Source: an uncultured Sphingomonadaceae bacterium
GTDB taxonomy: Bacteria; Pseudomonadota; Alphaproteobacteria; Sphingomonadales; Sphingomonadaceae
Assembly: GCA_947497455.1 (NCBI GenBank)
Contig: CANMGU010000001.1
Coordinates: 1,240,001 to 1,304,000, forward strand
Direction of reading: 5' to 3'
Length of the DNA: 64,000 nt
The position numbers and the translations under genes were made by a program. The notes beneath the pieces were generated by a model. That model had not been told where the DNA came from, searched no databases, and saw nothing but the letters and a program-made list of their open reading frames with translations. Of this stretch, positions 5,010 to 29,051 are shown piece after piece (the first letter of the stretch is position 1; each line of letters starts with the position of its first letter).

Positions 5010-6473
5010 ATGTTTGACAAGTTAAGCGACCGGCTCGGCGGCGTCTTTGACAAGCTGCGTGGCCGCGGCGCGCTGAAAGAGGAAGATGTCCGCGCAGCGA
5101 TGCGCGAAGTGCGTATTGCTTTGCTTGAAGCGGACGTTGCGCTGCCCGTTGTAAAGGATTTCGTCGAAAAGGTTACCGAACAGGCTGTCGGTCAATCGGT
5201 TCTCAAGTCCATCACGCCGGGCCAACAGGTCGTCAAAATCGTCAATGACGGTTTGGCAGATATGCTGGGTGCGGAAGTCAGTGGCCTGAATCTGGCAGTC
5301 ACGCCGCCTGCAATAATCATGATGGTCGGTTTGCAGGGCTCTGGTAAAACGACAACCACGGCCAAGATCGCCAAACGACTGAAAGACAAAGAGAATAAGA
5401 AGGTCATGATGGCCTCGCTCGACGTCAATCGCCCGGCGGCCCAGGAACAACTGGCAGTGCTGGGCGAGCAGATCAGTGCGGCAACGTTGCCGATTGTTGA
5501 AGGCCAGCAACCGGTTGAGATTGCGAAGCGCGCGCTACAGGCGGCAAAATTGCAGGGTTTCGACGTATTGATGCTCGATACAGCAGGCCGCTTGCATGTC
5601 GATCAACAATTGATGGACGAGATGAAGGCCGTAGCCGATGTCTCTAAGCCGCAAGAAACCTTGCTAGTTGTCGACGCTCTAACCGGTCAGGACGCAGTCA
5701 ATGTCGCGTCCAACTTCTCTGAGCAGGTTGATCTCAGCGGCGTCATTCTCACTCGGATGGATGGCGATGCCCGTGGTGGTGCAGCGCTTTCTATGCGGGC
5801 GGTTACCGGCAAGCCGATCAAATTTGTCGGTGTTGGAGAGAAGATCGATGCGCTGGAGGAATTCCATCCAGAACGCGTTGCTGGCCGCATTTTGGGCATG
5901 GGCGATGTTGTCAGTCTGGTGGAAAAGGCCGCTGCGACCGTTGACAAGGAAGAATCCGAGGCACTGGCCGAGAAAATGGCCAAGGGTCAGTTCGACCTGA
6001 ATGATTTGCGTTCACAGCTTCGTCAGATGACCAAGATGGGCGGTCTCGGGGCGTTGGCCTCGATGATGCCAGGCATGAAAAAGGCCAAGGCAGCTATGGC
6101 GGGCGGCGCAATGGACGACAAGGTTCTGGTGCGCATGGATGCAATTATCGGTTCGATGACCAAGGAAGAACGGGTGCGCCCGGGCTTGCTCAACGCCAAA
6201 CGCAAGGTCCGTGTTGCCAAGGGTTCCGGCACCACCGTGCAGGATGTGAACAAGCTCCTGAAAATGCATCAGGAAATGTCCAAGGCGATGAAGAAGATCA
6301 AGAAAATGGGCGGCATGAAGGGGCTGATGTCGATGTTTGGCGGTGGCGGCGGCGCTGCTGGTGCAGGCATGGGCGGTCAAAATGGCGGCATGTCCGGTAT
6401 GCCGGGCTTGCCCAATATGTCCCCTGGTGGACTACCCCCAGATCTCGCGAATTTATTGAATAAGAAGAAATAG
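5010..6473 (+). CDS. ffh: Signal recognition particle protein Ffh
   Basis: SRP54 GTPase that binds signal peptides together with SRP RNA and delivers ribosomes to FtsY. The 487-residue product has an N domain, a G domain (P-loop GLQGSGKT 107-114, DTAGRLHVD, TRMDGDARGG) and a Met-rich M domain ending in a Gly/Met-rich tail. The frame is open upstream to 4803, but the ATG at 5010 gives the family start MFDKLSDRLGGVFDKLRG and follows a purine-rich GAGAGAAAGGAAG. It probably leads the rpsP-rimM-trmD-rplS run; the gap to rpsP is 43 bases. Confidence 0.97.
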   Translation: MFDKLSDRLGGVFDKLRGRGALKEEDVRAAMREVRIALLEADVALPVVKDFVEKVTEQAVGQSVLKSITPGQQVVKIVNDGLADMLGAEVSGLNLAVTPPAIIMMVGLQGSGKTTTTAKIAKRLKDKENKKVMMASLDVNRPAAQEQLAVLGEQISAATLPIVEGQQPVEIAKRALQAAKLQGFDVLMLDTAGRLHVDQQLMDEMKAVADVSKPQETLLVVDALTGQDAVNVASNFSEQVDLSGVILTRMDGDARGGAALSMRAVTGKPIKFVGVGEKIDALEEFHPERVAGRILGMGDVVSLVEKAAATVDKEESEALAEKMAKGQFDLNDLRSQLRQMTKMGGLGALASMMPGMKKAKAAMAGGAMDDKVLVRMDAIIGSMTKEERVRPGLLNAKRKVRVAKGSGTTVQDVNKLLKMHQEMSKAMKKIKKMGGMKGLMSMFGGGGGAAGAGMGGQNGGMSGMPGLPNMSPGGLPPDLANLLNKKK

Positions 6474-6516
6474 TTTTAGAAATACCATTTATTAGATTGT
6501 TTTAGAAAGGTTTATT

Positions 6517-7062
6517 ATGTCAGTAGCAATGAGAATGGCCCGTGGTGGTTCCAAGAAGCGTCCTTATTACAAGATCGTGATCGCCGATGTCCGTGCGCCC
6601 CGTGACGGTAAGTTTATCGAGCGTATCGGTAGCTACAATCCGCTGCTCGCCAAGGATGACGAAAAGCGTGTGGTTCTGGATGTTGATCGGGCAAAACATT
6701 GGTTGAGTGTTGGCGCCAAGCCGTCAGACCGTGTTGCTCGCTTCCTTGACGCAGCCGGTTTGATGAAGCGCGAAGCGCGGAACAACCCGAACAAAGCGAA
6801 ACCGGGCGAAAAAGCAACCGAGCGTGCTGAAGAGAAAGCGGAAAAAGCTGCCGCTGCAGAAGAAGCTGCGAAAGAAGCCGCAGCCGCGCCTGCTGAGGAA
6901 GCTCCAGCGGAAGAAGCAGCTGCAGAAGCTCCTACAGAAGAAGCGCCAGCCGCTGAAGAAGCTGCCGCTGAAGCACCTACCGAAGAAGCAAAAACCGAAG
7001 AAGCACCAGCTGAAGAGGCTCCTGCTGCTGAGGAAGCGACTGAAGAAAAGTCCGAGGGTTAA
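6517..7062 (+). CDS. rpsP: 30S ribosomal protein S16 with long acidic tail
   Basis: Small-subunit protein. Residues 1 to about 87 are ordinary S16 ([23 protein letters not shown] start). From about residue 88 to 181 there is a low-complexity Lys/Glu then Ala/Glu/Pro tail made of imperfect copies of AEEAPAEEA and EAPTEE. The tail more than doubles the usual length of about 80-90 residues; Ala/Glu tails of this kind are known in sphingomonad S16 and their role is unknown. It is followed three bases later by rimM. Confidence 0.96.
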
Positions 7063-7065
7063 TCC

Positions 7066-7554
7066 TTGGCCAGCGTTGATCCGGACACGTCCGTCCCTCT
7101 TGCCGTCATCATTGGCGCGCATGGGGTGGCGGGCGAGGTTCGGCTCAAACTGTTCTGCGAGAGCCTAGACAGCCTGAAGCAGCACAAAGCCTATAATGAT
7201 GGCGCGTTGACGCTGAAATCCGTCAAGCCCCATAAAATGGGCGCCATCGCCCGATTTACCGAAATTACAGACCGCAATGCAGCAGAGGCTGCGCGTGGCA
7301 CGGAACTATCTATTCCACGTTCGTCACTGCCAGCGCTTGATGACGACGAGTTCTACCATATCGACATTATCGGGCTGCGCTGTGTCTCCGACAATGGCGA
7401 AGAACTGGGCAAGATCTTCGCCATCTACGAATTTGGCGCTGGCGATGTCATCGAAATCGAGCGTGCCAGCGGTAAGAAATTCATGGTTCCCGTGGGTGCC
7501 ATTGATATGCGGAGCGATCCGGCCATTGTTTTGTCGGATTTTGTGGAACCATGA
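7066..7554 (+). CDS. rimM: Ribosome maturation factor RimM
   Basis: 30S assembly factor that binds S19 and helps 16S processing. The 162-residue product shows the N-terminal beta-barrel start LAVIIGAHGVAGEVRLKLF and the C-terminal PRC-barrel half ending in GSDPAIVL-like sequence. The start is a TTG at 7066, three bases after the rpsP stop; no closer ATG gives a full N-terminus. Its TGA overlaps the ATG of the next small gene. Confidence 0.94.
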   Translation: MASVDPDTSVPLAVIIGAHGVAGEVRLKLFCESLDSLKQHKAYNDGALTLKSVKPHKMGAIARFTEITDRNAAEAARGTELSIPRSSLPALDDDEFYHIDIIGLRCVSDNGEELGKIFAIYEFGAGDVIEIERASGKKFMVPVGAIDMRSDPAIVLSDFVEP

Positions 7555-7841
7555 CCGGACCGATAGTCTTTATCGGAATAATCGTAATGGTAGCGGCTTT
7601 CCCAGCCATTATTGGCTGGAAACTGAGCCAAAAGCGCGATCAGCTCGTTCGCATGGCCAGTACGATATTAGCAGGACAGTTTATTCTGACGCCTGGTATG
7701 GCCTTAATCGCCTTTTCCGAAGATCGGGCGGGCGATGAAAATCCGGTACAGACCATAGTGATATATGCTGCGATGGCGCTCATGATCTCGATCATGACTT
7801 TTGTTATCCTCGAGATTCGACAGACGCGGCACGACAAATGA
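7551..7841 (+). CDS. Small three-helix membrane protein within the trmD operon
   Basis: A 96-residue hydrophobic protein I do not recognise. Three likely membrane segments lie at about 4-25, 35-56 and 68-90, separated by charged loops such as KLSQKRDQ and SEDRAGDE. The ATG overlaps the rimM stop by four bases (ATGA), which argues for translation. In most bacteria rimM is followed directly by trmD, so this gene and the next are an insertion into a highly conserved operon. Confidence 0.7.
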   Translation: MTGPIVFIGIIVMVAAFPAIIGWKLSQKRDQLVRMASTILAGQFILTPGMALIAFSEDRAGDENPVQTIVIYAAMALMISIMTFVILEIRQTRHDK

Positions 7842-7914
7842 CCCGTAATGGCCAAATTTTTGCGCTCGAAATATCCCAGACTTGGCTGACGTTTCAGGAA
7901 CTGGAGGCCAGCAA

Positions 7915-8205
7915 ATGGAATTGATCATTGCCATAGCGCTTCTTTTCATATTGTCGATCTTCACAGCATCGCTTGTTCAACGCCTCTTTTCGACTAAATC
8001 CGGCCGAAGCCAGTGGCTCTTATCAGGCGGTTTGAATATGGCCATGATAGTAACAGTGGTTGCCGCTATTGCCGTTTTCCGAGGAACCGGTTTTCATGCT
8101 GACATGGAGAATGGTTTGCTAATTGGATTGGGCGTTGTTTTTGCCCCTGTTGGTTTTGTACTCGGAGCAGTCATATCCAAAAAAATGCAGAAACGGGGAA
8201 AGTGA
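7915..8205 (+). CDS. Second small three-helix membrane protein
   Basis: A 96-residue protein with three predicted membrane segments (about 2-24, 35-55, 66-86) and a basic tail KKMQKRGK. I do not recognise a family. The ATG at 7915 has a GGAGG seven bases upstream (7903-7907); an in-frame TTG at 7882 is less likely. Its stop overlaps the trmD start as ATGA, so it is translationally coupled to trmD. Similar size and topology to the preceding gene suggest a pair, though I see no clear sequence identity. Confidence 0.68.
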
Positions 8206-8951
8206 TGACCTTCACCGCCCAAATTCTAACCCTTTATCCGGACATGTTCCCTGGTCCGCTCGGCACATCATTGGCAGGCAAGGCGCTGGAAGAGGGCAAA
8301 TGGTCCTGCGACCCCATCCAGATGCGCGACTTCGCTACCGACAAACATAAATCCGTGGACGACACGCCAGCTGGTGGCGGTGCGGGCATGGTTTTGCGCG
8401 CTGACGTCATGGCGTCGGCGGTTGATCATGCGCTGGAACGTCAACCGGATGCCCCGATCTTGGCGATGACTCCGCGCGGAAAACCGCTGAAACAGGCGCG
8501 TGTGCGGGAATTGGCTTCCGGTCCGGGTGTCACTATCCTCTGCGGTCGTTTCGAAGGATTTGATGAGCGGATCTTCAACGCGCGGCCGATTGAAGAGGTC
8601 TCGATTGGCGATTATATCCTTTCTGGCGGAGAAATGGGTGCTTTAGTGCTTTTAGACGCTTGCATTCGGCTGCTTCCCGGGGTAATGGGCGCGTCTTCTA
8701 GCGGAGATGATGAAAGTTTCGAAACCGGACTTTTGGAATATCCGCAGTTTACCCGGCCTCAGAAATGGGAAGGGCGTATTATCCCTGAAGTCTTGCGATC
8801 GGGGGATCATGCGAAAATAGCTGCTTGGCGGAAACAAAGGGCAGAGGAAGATACACGGCTAAGGCGGCCCGATTTATGGGAGCATCACAGGGATGCTCCG
8901 GATCAGTCGCCCTCTGGTGCGCGAGGACAGAAAAAGGAAGATCGGTCATGA
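8202..8951 (+). CDS. trmD: tRNA (guanine-N1)-methyltransferase TrmD
   Basis: SPOUT-class enzyme methylating G37 of tRNAs, which prevents +1 frameshifting. The 249-residue product has the knot-forming SAM-binding motifs [10 protein letters not shown] and GDYILSGGE (about 136-144) and the N-terminus [18 protein letters not shown]. Both ends are coupled: ATGA with the small upstream gene and ATGA with rplS. Confidence 0.96.
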
Positions 8952-9337
8952 ACCTGATCCAAACACTTGAGAAAGAAGCTGTAGAAGCATTTGCAGCATC
9001 TAAAGATATCCCGGAATTTCGCGCTGGCGATACGCTGCGCATTGGTGTTCGCGTTGTTGAAGGCGAGCGCGTCCGTACCCAGAATTTTGAAGGTGTGTGC
9101 ATTGCACGGACCAGCCGCGGCATGGGCTCTAGCTTCACCGTTAGAAAGATTTCTTTCGGCGAAGGCGTTGAGCGTGTGTTCCCGCTTTACTCACCGAATA
9201 TCGAATCGATCACAGTGGTCCGCCGCGGTGTCGTTCGTCGTGCGAAACTTTACTATCTGCGCGGCCGCACAGGTAAACGGGCGCGTATTGCGGAACGCCG
9301 CGTGAACCAGCCAGCCAAAGGCGCTGAAGCAAAGTAA
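8948..9337 (+). CDS. rplS: 50S ribosomal protein L19
   Basis: Large-subunit protein at the interface with the 30S. The 129-residue product begins [15 protein letters not shown] and contains the family core [21 protein letters not shown] and [15 protein letters not shown]. The ATG at 8948 overlaps the trmD stop and follows AAAAAGGAAG; longer in-frame starts lie within trmD and are not needed. A terminator follows at 9362. Confidence 0.96.
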
Positions 9338-23068: not shown

Positions 23069-23410
23069 TCAGATGCCGTAGCGTTTTTTGATATAGGCGA
23101 GCACGGCATTACGGCGATTGCCTTTGATCTCAAAGCGACCAGCGCGCACGGCCTGAGCAACTTCAGGCGCTGTTTCACGATTGAGCTTGTTATGATACTC
23201 ACAGCTTTTGCAGGTAATGTACCGGCGCACTTGCGCGCGGCCTTGGACGATCAGACGATCCTCATTTGAGATGCGGCTGTTGGTACCTCGCTTGACTTGC
23301 GTACCCCAATCGTTCCCAGCGGTACCGCGGCCAGTCGATCCCGAAGCAAAAGCCGCAGTAGAACTGGCAAATAACGCTAATAATGTGGCAGAAATCAATA
23401 CTCTCTTCAT
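23069..23410 (-). CDS. Small exported CxxC protein, copy 1
   Basis: A 113-residue protein with a clear signal peptide (MKRVLISATLLALFASSTAAFA-S). The mature part has a Gly/Ser/Thr-rich start, then RRYITCKSCEYHNKL with a CxxC motif, and a C-terminal helix AVLAYIKKRYGI. It aligns with the protein at 27455-27778 over the last 60 residues (ITCKxCEY, VAxxVxAGxF, AVLxYxxxRYxI). The pattern recalls a small c-type cytochrome, but the residue after CxxC is Glu, not His, so heme attachment is not expected. Metal or disulfide chemistry is possible. No named family is known to me. Confidence 0.78.
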   Translation of the reverse strand: MKRVLISATLLALFASSTAAFASGSTGRGTAGNDWGTQVKRGTNSRISNEDRLIVQGRAQVRRYITCKSCEYHNKLNRETAPEVAQAVRAGRFEIKGNRRNAVLAYIKKRYGI

Positions 23411-23503
23411 CGGTTTTAATCTTTCCATACGAACAAAACTTCGCTTTCTTGCGCTCGCGACTTTGCTGACAAGATATTGAGTACCGGAAATTTGGTATCG
23501 ATG

Positions 23504-23781: not shown

Positions 23782-24363
23782 ATGCAGCTATTCTGGAAAA
23801 CCCCTCTTATTGGTCCGAGCATATTCGCTGTCTGGGAAATTGACGCCCAGCGGAAATACCGGTTGACAAAAGACGCGATCGAGCGAGCGGATAGGTTGCT
23901 TGAGATTGGCTCAGGCCCCGGCAGCGTTGTAAAGGTTTTTCGTGAACAAGGGCTGGATGTGACCGCGCTAGATATAGCCGACAACAGTATTACGGATGAC
24001 TTGAAGCCGACCATATATGATGGCGATATCATGCCATTTGCGGACCGGTCATTTGATATCGCTTTGCTCCTGACTGTGTTGCACCATACGGCTGAGCCGG
24101 ACAACATCCTGCGGGAAGCCGGGCGTGTTTCAAAAAGATTGATGATTATGGAAGATGTCTATGACACTCCATTCCAGGCCGCTTATACCAAGCTAACGGA
24201 CAAGATTACCAATATGGAATTTATCGGTCATCCCCACAGCAACCGGTCACATGCCGAATGGCTGGAAACTTTTGACCGGATGGGATTCACCCTTCACCAC
24301 AGCGAAATCCATAGATTAGCAAAATTTTACCAGCAGGCGGTCTATATCGTCGACACAGAATGA
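23782..24363 (+). CDS. Class I SAM-dependent methyltransferase
   Basis: A 193-residue small-molecule-type methyltransferase: motif I LLEIGSGPGSVVKVF, the acidic strand TALDIADNS, then the motif FADRSFDIALLLTVLHHTAEPDNILREAGRV. This looks like a UbiE/Methyltransf_11 domain. There are about 35 residues before motif I; ATG 23782 follows CGAGGCG. The substrate is unknown; the neighbours (DUF547, glycosyltransferase, fatty-acid hydroxylase) suggest a lipid or envelope component. Confidence 0.85.
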   Translation: MQLFWKTPLIGPSIFAVWEIDAQRKYRLTKDAIERADRLLEIGSGPGSVVKVFREQGLDVTALDIADNSITDDLKPTIYDGDIMPFADRSFDIALLLTVLHHTAEPDNILREAGRVSKRLMIMEDVYDTPFQAAYTKLTDKITNMEFIGHPHSNRSHAEWLETFDRMGFTLHHSEIHRLAKFYQQAVYIVDTE

Positions 24364-24486
24364 AAAAGCGCGGCGGCGATACTCGCATCTGATCATTTTT
24401 TGGCGCATAGCAACGCTTGCTGGCTTTGGGACGAATATTGGTCATACATTCCGAATACATCACATAATTATTCCGCAAGGCTCGAC

Positions 24487-25434
24487 ATGAAACATCGCTA
24501 TATCGCCCTATTATCCCTTCTCGTTTCTGCGCCCGCACAGGCGGCAGATTTTGATCATTCCAGTTGGAATGCGCTTTTGGCCGATAATGTTGAAATGGTG
24601 CCGGACGGCAGTTCCTCAACTGTAAACTATGCGGAATTTGAGGAAGATCGTGCCGCGCTGAAATCCTATCTGGATGCGATGGCACAGGTCAGCCGTGCGG
24701 AGTTTGATAGCTGGCCGAAACCGGATCAACTCGCTTTCCTGATCAATGCCTATAACGCCTGGACGGTTGAATTAATTCTTACGCAATATCCCGATTTGGT
24801 GTCGATCAAGGAACTGGGATCATTAACTCAGTCACCCTGGCAAAAGTCCTTTATTCCGCTCTTGGATGAGACAGTATCTCTGGACAATATCGAGCATGAC
24901 ATGATCCGCGGCAGCGGACTATACAATGACCCACGCATCCATTTTGGCGTGAACTGTGCAAGCATTGGTTGCCCGGCCTTGCTCAACGAAGCATTTGTTG
25001 GAAGCAAGTTGGAACAACAATTGGAGATGATGACCCAGGGTTTTTTGAGCGACCGCACTCGCAACCGGCTTGAGGATGGAACTCTCGCTGTGTCGAGCAT
25101 CTTCAACTGGTATGGCGGTGATTTCGAACAAGGCTGGCGCGGTGCCGAAACGCTGGACGAATTTTTTGCGCTTTATGCCGATAGCCTCGGATTGTCCGCA
25201 GCTGAAGTCGAAGCGCTTGATGGTGGTGATATGGAAATTACATTTCTGGAATACGACTGGCGGCTCAATGACAACAAAGGACCCGGCATCGCCGAGAACT
25301 CCAACTTTATCTCACCCCTATGGCTGATAAGATCGAACCCTGTTTTGGGGTTCGCTGCCGGTGGTGCTCTTCTGGTCATAATTGGCGGAATCGTAATGAT
25401 TGTCCGTCGCCGTCGCGGGAAGAAAACAGCCTAA
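24487..25434 (+). CDS. DUF547-domain exported protein with C-terminal membrane anchor
   Basis: A 315-residue protein with signal peptide (MKHRYIALLSLLVSAPAQA-A), a DUF547 domain (LAFLINAYNAWTVELILTQYP, DEIEHDMIR-like NIEHDMIRG, HFGVNCASIGCPAL, LDDGTLAVSS-like) and a C-terminal transmembrane helix (GFAAGGALLVIIGGIVMIV) followed by RRRRGKKTA. The tail resembles sorting or stop-transfer anchors, placing the domain outside the cytoplasm. The biochemical role of DUF547 is unknown. ATG 24487 gives a good signal peptide; longer frames do not. Convergent with the glycosyltransferase gene, two bases apart. Confidence 0.85.
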   Translation: MKHRYIALLSLLVSAPAQAADFDHSSWNALLADNVEMVPDGSSSTVNYAEFEEDRAALKSYLDAMAQVSRAEFDSWPKPDQLAFLINAYNAWTVELILTQYPDLVSIKELGSLTQSPWQKSFIPLLDETVSLDNIEHDMIRGSGLYNDPRIHFGVNCASIGCPALLNEAFVGSKLEQQLEMMTQGFLSDRTRNRLEDGTLAVSSIFNWYGGDFEQGWRGAETLDEFFALYADSLGLSAAEVEALDGGDMEITFLEYDWRLNDNKGPGIAENSNFISPLWLIRSNPVLGFAAGGALLVIIGGIVMIVRRRRGKKTA

Positions 25435-25436
25435 GC

Positions 25437-27458
25437 TTAACGGAAGAACGCTTCCCGTCCGATCACATATAATATTTTGTTCCCGGCGAGCAGCACGCCG
25501 CGTACCGTACCGGATATTTTCGATACGCCGATACGGCGGCGGTAATTGGCCGGACGTTCGGCTACGCGCAGATCGTGTTGTACGGCTTTGACCTGCATCT
25601 CAATGGTCCAACCAAAGTCCCGGTCTGCCATATTCAGGCGATCAAGCGCATCGGCACGAATGGCACGAAACGGACCGAGATCGGTCATTCTCTCACCCCA
25701 AATCAGCCATACCAGCCGAGTCGCCAGCGAATTACCAAATTGCTGCGGAAGGGTCATGGCGCCTGTCTGCTTTTGCCCCAAAGCCCGTGATCCGATGACC
25801 AGATCAGCCGTGCCGTCTATCAACGGTGCGATCAAACCCGGTCCTTCTTCCGGCACATCTGCACCGTCACCGTCCATGAACAGGAATATATTCGTGTCTG
25901 CCGGTGCGGCGGCTATTCCCGCCAAACATGCAGCGCCATAGCCGCGCTTCGGTTCGCTTACAATTTTCGCTCCGACGGCCAAAGCCTGTTTGATGGTGCG
26001 GTCCGTAGAGCCATTGTCAGCGACAATGATGCACGGCGGCGCAGACCAGTTTTGCGTCTTAATGCCATGAACAACATATCCGATTGAATTTTCCTCGTTC
26101 AGTGCCGGGATGATGACTGCAACCTGGGGCTGCGCTATTGGTGTGCGTAAAGTCTCTGCCGGATCGCCGGCTTTCTTTTCTCTTTGATAACACCAATAAT
26201 CCCAGAAAATAGCAGCCAGCAATATGATGATCTGAGCCACCCAGGCCATCCAGTGCACTTCAAAATCCCTCAGCGCCGGGTTTTCAAGGTTAAGCCCCGT
26301 CAGATAGCTGAGCGGCAATGCGACTGCCGCCGCGAAAGGCCAGACCATGCGGCTTTTTGTCGCAAACGGTAATATCCACAATAGATACCAGGCGTTCACC
26401 GCGGGTGCGAACAGCAGAATAATGCCGAATATCATCGCTATCGGTGCAACTTCTAAACTGCGGGTTCGGGCATGTAGGACCATGATGATACCAATACCGA
26501 TCAATGCAGCGCTCAGCCTTGCTATCGAGGAAGGTAGCAGGGTATCAAGCAACGCAAAGCCCATGGGGTTATAATACCAATCAGCCGCGAAAACGCCGGT
26601 TGTTTCGAATCCTGCACCCTGTCCCTGGATCAGGAAGATGCCATAGATAACCGCCGATGTTGCGATAGCCGATGCCACGGCCCGCCATCCCATTCGCAAA
26701 AGCAGGGGCCAAAGGGCGAGCGCAACAATTTTGGCACCTGCGGCTAATCCGAAGAATAAGCCAGCGGCCAGCGGATAACGCTTTGCCAATAATATTCCCG
26801 CCAGCAGCAACATTGCCATTATGCCGTCGGGATGAATGTGAATGATTGTTTCTGCCAATACCAAAGGGCACCAAGCATATAGTGCTGCTTTTTCAGGACT
26901 GGTCCAACGTAGCAGCAACGCCACAAGGATCAAGTTGATGACAGCAAAAAATATCCGCAACCCCATCGGATCCGTGCCAGCGGACAGATAGGCCAGCGAG
27001 AATATAAATTGCAACGTTGGGCCGTAAATTGTCGACAAATGCGGATTGTTCACTCCATCCAGGGTCAGCGCAAGCCTGCTATCGGGGAGTGTGTTTCCAA
27101 AAAATTCGGCCGGCGCAACACCATAAGGTGTACCCGATATTATCGACCTCCAGCCATCCCAAATGAACCGGAAATAGTCATCTTCAAAGGCTGCAAAGCC
27201 AAAGATCGCCATGATATGAAGGATCAGGGCAACGCTGAATACCGTTCGGACCGTCAGTACCGTTGATCGCCAGATGCCGATGAAAACGACCAAGTTACCA
27301 AGGCTCAGCAACGCAACATAGGGTAGGACAGGGCTGTCATCGCTTTGCGATAACAACACAAGCCCGGCGGTGGCCGCAATTGCCGCCACCGCCGTCAAAA
27401 TAGTGGAAAATCCCATCGATATGCCGTTAGACCGGGCGACAGTTGACTGTTGGCTCAA
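25437..27458 (-). CDS. GT-C membrane glycosyltransferase fused to GT2 polyprenyl-phosphate glycosyltransferase
   Basis: A 673-residue fusion. Residues 1 to about 435 are very hydrophobic (about ten membrane segments) and have the first-loop signature EDDYFRFIWDGW (about 92-103) typical of GT-C transferases that use polyprenyl-phosphate sugars. Residues about 444-673 are a GT2 domain like dolichyl-phosphate mannose synthase: VAVIIPALNEENSIG, ADNGSTDRT, FLFMDGDGADVP (about 527), GSRALG and NYRRRIGVSKISG. One chain may therefore make the lipid-linked sugar and use it. The TTG start at 27458 overlaps the stop of the CxxC copy 2 gene; ATG 27416 is an alternative. Confidence 0.85.
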   Translation of the reverse strand: MSQQSTVARSNGISMGFSTILTAVAAIAATAGLVLLSQSDDSPVLPYVALLSLGNLVVFIGIWRSTVLTVRTVFSVALILHIMAIFGFAAFEDDYFRFIWDGWRSIISGTPYGVAPAEFFGNTLPDSRLALTLDGVNNPHLSTIYGPTLQFIFSLAYLSAGTDPMGLRIFFAVINLILVALLLRWTSPEKAALYAWCPLVLAETIIHIHPDGIMAMLLLAGILLAKRYPLAAGLFFGLAAGAKIVALALWPLLLRMGWRAVASAIATSAVIYGIFLIQGQGAGFETTGVFAADWYYNPMGFALLDTLLPSSIARLSAALIGIGIIMVLHARTRSLEVAPIAMIFGIILLFAPAVNAWYLLWILPFATKSRMVWPFAAAVALPLSYLTGLNLENPALRDFEVHWMAWVAQIIILLAAIFWDYWCYQREKKAGDPAETLRTPIAQPQVAVIIPALNEENSIGYVVHGIKTQNWSAPPCIIVADNGSTDRTIKQALAVGAKIVSEPKRGYGAACLAGIAAAPADTNIFLFMDGDGADVPEEGPGLIAPLIDGTADLVIGSRALGQKQTGAMTLPQQFGNSLATRLVWLIWGERMTDLGPFRAIRADALDRLNMADRDFGWTIEMQVKAVQHDLRVAERPANYRRRIGVSKISGTVRGVLLAGNKILYVIGREAFFR

Positions 27459-27778
27459 GGGATGATGCTATAACGTTCCGACATATAATAGAGTACGGCT
27501 TGTCGCTGCTTGGCCTTCAGATTAAACTCGCCAGCCTTTACCCTAGCGGCGACTGCGCGCGCGGTTTTACCATCGGTAAAGCCGCCCTTATACTCGCACT
27601 TCTTGCAAGTAATACGCTTATTGAACGCTCTTTTGCCTTTGCTAAACGCCGCTGCACGAGGATCGCGTGGTTGAGACGCGCCAAATCCGTCACCGCCACT
27701 ATAACCGCCGCTAGACGCCAATGCCGGTGCCGCAACCATCACAGATGCTGTTGCCAATATTAAGCACAGCTTTTTCAT
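27455..27778 (-). CDS. Small exported CxxC protein, copy 2
   Basis: A 107-residue protein with a signal peptide (MKKLCLILATASVMVAAPALA-S), a Gly/Ser-rich linker, then KRITCKKCEYKGGF and a C-terminal helix AVLYYMSERYSIIP. It is the paralogue of the protein at 23069-23410; CxxC-Glu and the terminal helix are shared. Its stop overlaps the putative TTG start of the fusion glycosyltransferase, so the two appear translationally coupled, suggesting a related role in the envelope. ATG 27778 follows TTTAGGAGTGCAAT. Confidence 0.8.
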   Translation of the reverse strand: MKKLCLILATASVMVAAPALASSGGYSGGDGFGASQPRDPRAAAFSKGKRAFNKRITCKKCEYKGGFTDGKTARAVAARVKAGEFNLKAKQRQAVLYYMSERYSIIP

Positions 27779-27914
27779 ATTGCACTCCTAAATTTTCTGT
27801 CTGGGTTTTGAACCCTCGGTATAATTTTGGAGAAGCGTAGCATTTATTATCTTATCGGTATAGCAAGGCCATATCCCTTTCTATTTCAGAATATGCGCTG
27901 GAGTACAGAACATG

Positions 27915-28100
27915 TTATGTCCGATACGCTCCTTCGTTTGCGGCAGCACAATCAAGATGAGCCACCTCGGCAAATTGGCTTTCTATTCCGTCATGGACTT
28001 TCGCAAGGCCGCCATCATCGCTGGCGAATAGCATATAACCCGCCGCAATTAACGGACTGCAAAGCAGCAACGCGATTAAAACTTTTGCTTTCCAATTCAT
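27915..28100 (-). CDS. Possible small membrane-anchored protein (61 aa)
   Basis: A short frame with an N-terminal membrane segment (MNWKAKVLIALLLCSPLIAAGYMLF) and a soluble tail. ATG 28100 follows AGGATTGCGGA and lies nine bases after the stop of the fatty-acid-hydroxylase-family gene on the same strand. I recognise no family. It could be a cotranscribed small protein or chance. Confidence 0.4.
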   Translation of the reverse strand: MNWKAKVLIALLLCSPLIAAGYMLFASDDGGLAKVHDGIESQFAEVAHLDCAAANEGAYRT

Positions 28101-28109
28101 TCCGCAATC

Positions 28110-29051
28110 CTAGGTTTTGGGTCCAAAAGGGCGTAGCATGTAGTCGCGTAGCGTAGCGACTGGCGGATATCCATCAATGCCAGTCTTTGGAAATTCTCCA
28201 TCTTTCGGCATATATTGTGTGCCAAATATGCGGTCAAAAAATGAAAAAAAGGACGCATAGTTTTTACCAATATGGCGGACATCACGTGTATGATGCTGAT
28301 GATGGTAAACATTGTCAGCAACAACATGACGCAAGGGCGCAGGAAATGACAGCGCCGGGGCATCAGAATGCATGTAATAATTGGATATGAGGTAAAATGT
28401 CGTCACCAGCATGATATGCTGCTGCGGAGCGTCGATCAAAAGTACCAGCGGCGTGGTGATCAGCAATATGTAGATTACATCCTGCCCGAAATGGGAATAG
28501 CTGCGGGCCGCATTTAAGTCTTCAATCTGATGATGGATGGCGTGAAAGCGCCACAGGAAATCATAGTGATGCAACGCACGATGCAGCCAATATTCCATCA
28601 AGCCCAACAACAAAAGATAAGCTAGCGGAAAAGCGACAAGCACAGGTCCTAGATCACCGGCCGCAAATAGCGGTTGTACGCCCAATGACCTCAGCAAGCT
28701 AAATTCTGCCGCTTGAACCAATATAGAAATCGCTAACGCCGTCACACTATAGATCAAGCCATCGCGATATCGGGCGCGAAAATCGGAAAAGCGCAATTGT
28801 CGCCATTCGATGATGACAAAAAGCCCAGCCACCGCCAAAAAGGTAAAGATACCGTTGGTCAAAGCCACAATCGTGTTCGCGGCCAGCGACCCAATTTCCA
28901 TATCTTGTAACGAAAGCCCCAGTCGTTGCTGTATCCAACCGGCAATATAGAGCAACAGTTCCGCAGCTATCAGCAGTACTGTAAAGGTTGCAATGAAGTG
29001 CCAATAGCCACGTTGTTCGAGCTGCTTGCTGGCAATGTTCGGAATCTTCAC
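28110..29051 (-). CDS. Sterol desaturase/fatty acid hydroxylase superfamily membrane enzyme
   Basis: A 313-residue integral membrane protein with four to six membrane segments and the di-iron histidine clusters of the superfamily: HRALHH, HAIHH and HHQHH. Members hydroxylate or desaturate lipids at the membrane; in sphingomonads, candidate substrates are fatty acids, sphingoid bases or carotenoids. The substrate cannot be read from sequence. It is transcribed leftward, away from a 290-base gap containing repeat copy C. Confidence 0.9.
   Translation of the reverse strand: MKIPNIASKQLEQRGYWHFIATFTVLLIAAELLLYIAGWIQQRLGLSLQDMEIGSLAANTIVALTNGIFTFLAVAGLFVIIEWRQLRFSDFRARYRDGLIYSVTALAISILVQAAEFSLLRSLGVQPLFAAGDLGPVLVAFPLAYLLLLGLMEYWLHRALHHYDFLWRFHAIHHQIEDLNAARSYSHFGQDVIYILLITTPLVLLIDAPQQHIMLVTTFYLISNYYMHSDAPALSFPAPLRHVVADNVYHHQHHTRDVRHIGKNYASFFSFFDRIFGTQYMPKDGEFPKTGIDGYPPVATLRDYMLRPFGPKT

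Follow-up and report, generated by a model that had tools for sequence, protein, structure and literature searches.

In the three-component systems CsbB-GtcA-YfhO and GtlA-GtcA-GtlB, a C55-P-sugar is made inside the cell by a cytosolic glycosyltransferase (GT), flipped, and used outside by an outward-facing GT, which in Listeria has the GT-C fold (PMC7389260; the articles with PMC numbers are cited here from extracts). The gene described here lies at positions 25437-27458 of a 64,000-nucleotide stretch (the window) of contig CANMGU010000001.1 from an uncultured Sphingomonadaceae bacterium (GCA_947497455.1, positions 1,240,001 to 1,304,000). It differs from these systems in that the GT2 and the GT-C form one chain and in that its neighbours are nucleoside-sugar genes; no flippase gene was noticed beside it, no search aimed at flippase families having been made. 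PpgS (Rv3631) and Rv3779 of M. tuberculosis are, like the two halves of the window protein, a polyprenyl-phosphate sugar synthase and a separate enzyme reported to spend the product, but they are unfused and handle N-acetylgalactosamine (PMC3485146). Mycobacterial Ppm1 has, as here, a GT2 like dolichyl-phosphate mannose (DPM) synthase behind a membrane domain, the two being encoded by two genes in some species, and differs in its first domain, which is anchored by six transmembrane segments; a DPM-like GT2 fused to a membrane domain is thus already known (PMC3485146). The eukaryotic ALG3 and glycosylphosphatidylinositol (GPI) mannosyltransferase I, solved with Dol-P-Man, share the GT-C fold with the N-terminal half of the window protein at 13-16% sequence identity. 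These two are single-domain enzymes of the endoplasmic reticulum. The first domain of Ppm1 is not known to be a GT-C transferase, whereas GT2/GT-C pairs encoded by separate genes are widespread.

What is new at this locus is the gene context: many relatives of the fused gene lie beside genes named for arsenosugar biosynthesis. In Synechocystis, ArsS with ArsM performs the initial arsenosugar steps (Xue 2019, cited in PMC8552651), and the lipids already described include phytyl arsenosugars and phospholipids with an arsenosugar (PMC7345539). The sphingomonads differ from Synechocystis ArsM/ArsS by a radical S-adenosylmethionine (SAM) enzyme of a non-ArsS type. Among the matches listed in the open-access full-text literature, none of the titles or abstract openings reports a GT-C::GT2 fusion or links the pair to arsenosugars. 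The explanation that we favour, with a probability as a whole of roughly 0.55, is that the gene encodes a two-step glycosylation enzyme using a ribose-type sugar. That the protein is both maker and user of a polyprenyl-phosphate sugar is highly probable; that this sugar is a nucleoside-derived ribose stands at even odds. The gene and its parts are the following.

25437-27458, minus strand: fused GT-C::GT2 gene, 673 amino acids (open reading frame, Pfam, AlphaFold2 model, structure re-alignment)
26169-27458, minus strand: GT-C membrane domain, residues 1-430, with a fold like GT87, ALG3 and GPI mannosyltransferase (AlphaFold2 model, ALG3 match)
27153-27182, minus strand: acidic first outer loop motif DDYFRFIWDG, residues 93-102 (conservation of D94)
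25440-26138, minus strand: DPM-synthase-like GT2 domain, residues 441-673 (PF00535; DPM synthase 5mlz, Z 24.4)
25866-25874, minus strand: DxD motif D529-G530-D531 of the GT2 domain (sequence; alignment consensus DxDxSDxP)

The open reading frame (ORF) has a TTG start and no internal stop, and runs on the minus strand, a point on which the first-pass annotation was silent. The start codon and the stop codon of the small gene upstream share the four letters TTGA, which fits translational coupling of the two genes. A frameshift or annotation artefact is ruled out by the single ORF present in 26 of 27 Sphingomonadales loci, the 27th (L047) lying at a contig end. Nor is the fused ORF a sequencing accident, because it recurs in Sphingomonadales loci, in related genomes and in a paralogue of the same genome. 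Pfam Glycos_transf_2 (PF00535) matches residues 448-605 (2.5e-19), while the N-terminal half of the 673-amino-acid protein has no Pfam match, GT87 (PF09594) at E<=1 included. Since GT87 is matched by 25 of 33 unfused GT-C partners (E<=0.01) and by a fusion from Miltoncostaea (32.4 bits, cut-off 25), this half is called GT87-like only. The NCBIfam models nearest to the C-terminal half include AglJ (121.6 bits, cut-off 325), dolichyl-P hexose transferase (63.8) and PpgS (47.6, cut-off 370), and the model of glucosyl-3-phosphoglycerate synthase, not a lipid-sugar enzyme, scores between them; none of the models of characterised polyprenyl-P sugar synthases reached its cut-off, so the half has no equivalog-level match.

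An AlphaFold2 model of the whole protein, built on a 101-row alignment (the query plus 100 out of 124 distinct relatives), has a mean pLDDT of 93.1 and a pTM of 0.90. Foldseek puts GT2 enzymes at its top ranks (GpgS and ArnC, then PcManGT, GtrB and DPM synthase); the GT-C matches were taken from the same whole-protein model. In the VIA re-alignment, residues 15-426 superpose on yeast ALG3 (Z 24.8, 329 aligned residues, 3.7 A), with further matches to GPI mannosyltransferase I (Z 22.2), PimE (18.8) and ALG6 (18.7), and at Z about 20 to a chain of GPI transamidase, presumably PIG-U. Residues 441-671 superpose on DPM synthase (5mlz; Z 24.4, 221 aligned residues, 2.5 A), followed by GpgS (Z about 24) and ArnC (22.8). 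The GT-C superfamily fold is present in the N-terminal half of the model, although fold likeness alone is no proof of function. The first-pass annotation had read one polypeptide joining a GT-C to a DPM-synthase-like GT2 at exactly this ORF, and both folds bear it out. It had also recognised a GT-C loop signature in DDYFRFIWDG, and the residues required of a GT-C enzyme are in place. All 43 unfused rows have D94, as do 97% of the 30 fused rows, among which is the window's own copy. R97 and G102 are found in all rows of both sets, W100, Y145, H209, K243, W357 and Y358 in at least 97%, and these residues together with D94 and D101 are kept in at least 91% of the unfused and at least 97% of the fused rows.

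The acidic loop of GT-C enzymes faces outward. The last helix of the N-terminal half (403-430) ends in REKK and is followed by a short linker to the GT2, which suggests in the model that the GT2 domain is cytosolic; this helix end and the GT2/flippase/GT-C precedent (PMC7389260) would place the GT2 inside and the GT-C outside. Straight channelling of the sugar to the transfer step, as first proposed for this fusion, is not supported, because the active sites would lie on opposite membrane faces and a flip would still be needed between them. On this analysis the fusion can only keep maker and user near each other at one flipping site.

A scan of 84,980 species genomes yielded 136 stretches encoding relatives, from which 80 loci were kept. 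Sphingomonadales provide 27 loci: 26 (L021-L046) have both domains in one ORF of 653-800 amino acids and are all the one-ORF loci of the scan, and L047, which starts at a contig end, shows GT2 only. GT2 and GT-C are separate genes of one locus in 41 loci, and the remaining 12, where one or both are without label, were put in a third class. The earlier statement that these domains are normally separate fits the relatives outside Sphingomonadales. Two split loci from the related genomes bring the split set to 43, in which the order is GT2 then adjacent GT-C in 14, GT-C then GT2 in 4, and GT2, a CESA-like GT2, then GT-C in 23. The fused gene is found in 8 of 59 other related genomes with 81-91% identity over essentially its full length.

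Trees and the mirror-tree comparison used the 70 loci holding both halves, near-copies and truncated ones being left out. A single branch separates the 30 fused rows from the others in both midpoint-rooted trees (GT2 100/99, bootstrap not settled; GT-C 100, in a quick tree), and the Sphingomonadales fusions are one clade. The two halves co-evolve: the distance matrices of 40 unfused pairs correlate at r = 0.902, a value reached by 0 of 2000 permutations, which includes shared species history and thus supports co-inheritance and not by itself contact. The fusion can be read as a Rosetta stone indicating that separate GT2 and GT-C genes serve one product, and such separate genes occur together in Bacteroidota, Planctomycetota, Omnitrophota, Actinomycetota and others.

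The Miltoncostaea oceani fusion (WP_217924567, 651 amino acids, GT87::GT2) is plasmid-encoded and annotated only as GT2. It resembles the window protein in its GT87-then-GT2 order, differs in its phylum (Actinomycetota), and has a radical SAM gene on one side and one for DUF2064 on the other; at 5915-9102 of this plasmid locus (L107) the fusion adjoins a DUF2064-NUDIX protein and the radical SAM gene. A single clade of the Miltoncostaea and Sphingomonadales fusions is disfavoured by the GT2 rows (p-AU 0.04) and not by the GT-C rows (p-AU 0.17), in quick trees with long branches from 33 and 31 chosen rows, respectively; the Miltoncostaea fusion is probably a second, independent event. Related genes are found on other plasmids: GT2, DUF2064, methyltransferase, GT87, MTAP and epimerase in Arthrobacter; TIGR04282, GT87, radical SAM/SPASM, GT2 and aminotransferase in Methylobacterium; and GT87 with GT2, DUF2064 and a further GT in Pseudoalteromonas. 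The sugar may differ between lineages, because GT2/GT-C pairs occur with different front ends. No further fusion turned up among seven Bacteroidota GT-C matches that were fetched, with open frames of 626-701 amino acids: six chains, in which the GT-C profile matched again, have no GT2-profile match (E<=1e-6), and in the seventh (L114) no called ORF matched any profile. The six proteins (L111, L112, L113, L115, L116, L117; 604-701 amino acids) have an extra C-terminal part without such a match.

The neighbourhood of the pair is what points to its sugar. Family labels of neighbours were taken from representatives, and loci L001-L020, L047, L102, L105 and L106 (near-copies, short or contig-end loci) were left out of the counts, which are lower bounds because the flanks are at most 8-10 kb long and are often ended sooner by the contig. 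The fullest order, in L022, L024 and L026, runs through fatty-acid hydroxylase, rhodanese, PiT transporter, MTAP-type phosphorylase, radical SAM, ArsM-like methyltransferase, SDR, TIGR04283-like GT2, TIGR04282, a small CxxC protein (labelled in L024 and L026), the fused GT, DUF547 and a methyltransferase. Across the 28 fused loci, DUF547 is found near the fusion in 23, TIGR04282 in 19 (a remnant in the window being counted), radical SAM in 15, rhodanese and MTAP in 11 each, and the ArsM-like enzyme in 10. TIGR04282, TIGR04283-like GT2 and ArsM-like genes thus lie near the pair, joined in some Bacteroidota by ArsS. Six of the 43 split loci have a true ArsS in their flanks, and four of these six are from Pontibacter; the name of that gene cluster rests on coordinate matches of L054 and L055 to TIGR04167 hits and on similarity. 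Since an OlsE-like fatty-acid hydroxylase is linked in 18 of 28 loci, lipid modification may be part of the pathway. The position of the relatives beside arsenosugar-type genes suggests an envelope molecule not yet described as the product of the fused enzyme, and gives that product a testable identity. The first-pass annotation called the glycan unknown, which formally holds, but the neighbouring genes now indicate a nucleoside-derived ribose of the arsenosugar type.

The association extends to whole genomes. Within a related set of 60 genomes, the window's own included, the pair occurs in 12 (as a fusion in 9, truncated at a contig end in 1, as split but overlapping genes in 2), radical SAM in 27, TIGR04282 in 28, the ArsM-like enzyme in 12 and DUF547 in 27. 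All 12 pair genomes have radical SAM and TIGR04282 (p 1.2e-5 and 2.2e-5, uncorrected for kinship; 2.8e-5 and 4.7e-5 without the window's own genome). Each of the 12 genomes with the ArsM-like enzyme also carries the radical SAM gene, and 8 of the 12 pair genomes have the ArsM-like enzyme. Because core genomes often lack the pair and the reverse is never seen among the 60, the pair seems to be an optional addition to a core of radical SAM and TIGR04282. Nine of 12 further fusion genomes have radical SAM, and one holds a 57-residue piece of it at a contig start. Among 148 Bacteroidota genomes, GT-C is found in 29, ArsS in 58 and both in 18 (p 0.005); leaving out the centre genome, where both genes were known beforehand, gives 17 of 28 (p 0.008). 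ArsS accompanies 15 of the 20 strongest GT-C matches (p 0.0006), a score cut chosen after seeing the list, the uncut figure being 18 of 29. GT-C and ArsS share a contig in 9 of the 18 genomes, within about 27 kb in 6 and hundreds of kb apart in 3, as read by hand.

The ArsM-like neighbours have cysteines at the three ArsM-type motifs in 16, 17 and 17 of 17 rows, and ArsM enzymes bind As(III) with such cysteines. A relative's ArsM-like enzyme reaches 150.7 of 263 bits with the arsenite methyltransferase model and 85.6 of 400 with AsSugarArsM. TIGR04282 is over its cut-off of 134 in the window's genome, with 182.4 bits at 467186 of contig C1, beside the paralogue; TIGR04283 is not, the paralogue's neighbour scoring 160.7 of 182 bits although this is the best family for that protein.

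The computations show the fusion, its two folds, the conservation of the motifs, the co-evolution of both halves and the surrounding genes; donor, acceptor, flipping and arsenic we infer from the families as follows. The sugar would most likely be an unusual ribose from a 5'-deoxyadenosine-type nucleoside built by ArsM and the radical SAM enzyme. The MTAP-type phosphorylase would release the sugar-1-phosphate from the nucleoside, and TIGR04282, CofC-like by family, would make the nucleotide sugar. The GT2 would then transfer the sugar to polyprenyl phosphate on the cytosolic face, another protein would flip the lipid-linked sugar across the membrane, and the N-terminal GT-C would then attach this sugar to an acceptor located on the outer side of the inner membrane. 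Judged by family membership, MTAP, TIGR04282, GT2 and GT-C could together form a consistent pathway for a 5-substituted 5-deoxyribose. The substituent might plausibly be dimethylarsenic in some relatives, the product then being an arsenosugar lipid or glycan; the use of arsenic, in at least the full-cluster relatives, is doubtful. It is less likely still that GT2/GT-C supplies the late steps that are missing from the bacterial route to arsenosugars and arsenolipids, including transfer to phosphatidylglycerol or another lipid. In that case, 5-arsenoribose-1-phosphate would be activated by TIGR04282, loaded on polyprenyl phosphate by the GT2, flipped, and transferred by the GT-C; arsenosugar phospholipids would be assembled at the outer side of the membrane, with the Sphingomonadales fusion as a one-chain version. 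The enzyme pair could serve as a direct test object for the joining of arsenoribose to glycerol or lipid, which would follow the initial ArsS/ArsM steps (PMC8552651).

Several results weigh against the favoured explanation, part of them against arsenic in particular. The Sphingomonadales radical SAM enzyme matches ArsS (TIGR04167) in its core only, at 55 bits for a cut-off of 300: four genomes of the order (G060-G063) score 54.5-61.4 bits, a fifth (G064) scores 23.8, and the enzyme of the window's genome is 72% identical to a protein with 55.5 bits. The cut-off is passed by 11 of 20 searched genomes, all outside Sphingomonadales, and below it the model also matches in 14 of 14 control genomes. 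From these scores the sphingomonad enzyme is to be regarded as not ArsS. No match to the cluster ArsM was found in the window's own genome, and only 7 of 13 searched fusion genomes carry it. The cluster-type radical SAM enzyme was not found in two of the 12 further fusion genomes, Erythrobacter rubeus (G064) and a Porphyrobacter metagenome-assembled genome (G083); the stretch seen of the Arthrobacter plasmid has no radical SAM gene, and 15 of 27 radical SAM genomes of the related set are without the pair. ArsS over the cut-off is absent from 11 of 29 Bacteroidota GT-C genomes. Related pairs also have other front ends: a SPASM radical SAM enzyme and an aminotransferase in Methylobacterium, the Arthrobacter set, and the CESA-like GT2 of Bacteroidota.

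Part of this list fits ordinary envelope glycosylation with a common hexose or pentose, similar to ArnC/ArnT or CsbB/YfhO, in which the arsenosugar-type genes are just frequent neighbours. Fold and motifs suit any polyprenyl-P sugar pair, and a cellulose-synthase-like GT2 stands between the genes in the 23 of 43 split loci of Bacteroidota relatives noted above; the Bacteroidota GT-C genomes without ArsS over the cut-off and the two fusion genomes in which the cluster-type radical SAM enzyme was not found point the same way. Such a role is nevertheless rather unlikely, given the radical SAM and TIGR04282 genes in every pair genome of the related set, the recurrence of MTAP, DUF2064 and epimerase with the pair even on the Arthrobacter plasmid, and the ArsS gene within about 27 kb in 6 of the 9 Bacteroidota genomes holding both on one contig.

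The window copy has lost part of this neighbourhood, as seen from the features around it.

23782-24363, plus strand: class I SAM methyltransferase, common to close relatives (PF08241; 6 of 28 fused loci)
24400-25434, plus strand: DUF547 protein, convergent neighbour (PF04784, 8.5e-23; 23 of 28 fused and 13 of 43 split loci)
27455-27778, minus strand: small secreted-looking CxxC protein, 107 amino acids (family near the fusion in 17 of 28 fused loci)
27845-27952, plus strand: TIGR04282 gene remnant, residues 133-168 (86% identity to L022/L026 over 36 residues)
27951-28100, minus strand: rhodanese gene remnant, first 50 codons (74-80% identity to rhodanese of L021/L022/L026)
28110-29051, minus strand: fatty-acid-hydroxylase family protein, conserved neighbour (PF04116; 18 of 28 fused loci)

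The rhodanese and TIGR04282 stubs abut at 27951/27952, and the genes that separate them in relatives are missing. Fatty-acid hydroxylase, small protein, fused GT, DUF547 and methyltransferase are kept with 80-94% identity to L021, L022 and L026. The lost middle includes the ArsM-like gene of these three loci and the radical SAM and MTAP genes of L022 and L026; in L021, the nearest relative in the cluster comparison, the latter two are absent at this place. By this alignment the window copy sits in the remnant of an arsenosugar-type cluster. The same genome has a fused paralogue (L101, 461265-463283 of contig C1) with 80% identity over all 673 residues. Its neighbours are fatty-acid hydroxylase, rhodanese, small protein, DUF547, MTAP, radical SAM, TIGR04283-like GT2 and TIGR04282, and no ArsM was found at that locus.

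The deletion raises the question of whether the window copy is a decaying leftover whose partners were deleted, only the paralogue still working. The abutting stubs are compatible with decay, as is the comparison of the N-terminal half with the nearest relative, L002, where amino-acid changes affect 30 codons and silent changes 15 (ratio of nonsynonymous to synonymous rates, dN/dS, 0.66, at a dS of 0.05). Decay is nonetheless quite improbable: the ORF is intact, it retains the DxD and every one of the 13 conserved GT-C positions that were checked, and dN/dS is about 0.1 against the paralogue and 0.07-0.16 against the paralogue and the orthologues L007, L009 and L022, in both halves (for L027 and L028 silent sites are saturated and give no value). 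The C-terminal half compared with L002 has a dS of 0.66 and a dN/dS of 0.10. The 30 changed codons fall on the window branch in 10 cases and on the L002 branch in 16, 4 being unplaced. The switch in dS near codons 400-417 (26208-26261), which is the domain boundary, points to a putative recombination at the GT-C/GT2 boundary, and the N-half ratio could also mean relaxed selection.

That the N-terminal half is a mere membrane anchor for the GT2, the outcome that would have overturned the original assignment and that its missing Pfam match might suggest, is ruled out, as far as computation reaches, by the GT-C fold (Z 24.8 over 329 residues) found through the structure prediction then recommended, by the conserved acidic loop and invariant catalytic-type residues, and by the Pfam GT87 matches of 25 of 33 unfused partners.

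Two small-protein genes of the window are diverged copies of one another, with the motifs CKKCEY and CKSCEY, and stand on either side of the fused gene at 27455-27778 and 23069-23428; in the Pfam search both are below the cut-off. The DUF547 protein at 24400-25434 has a signal-like N-terminal end and a C-terminal transmembrane tail with arginines, and DUF547 proteins are found near the GT pair in several phyla.

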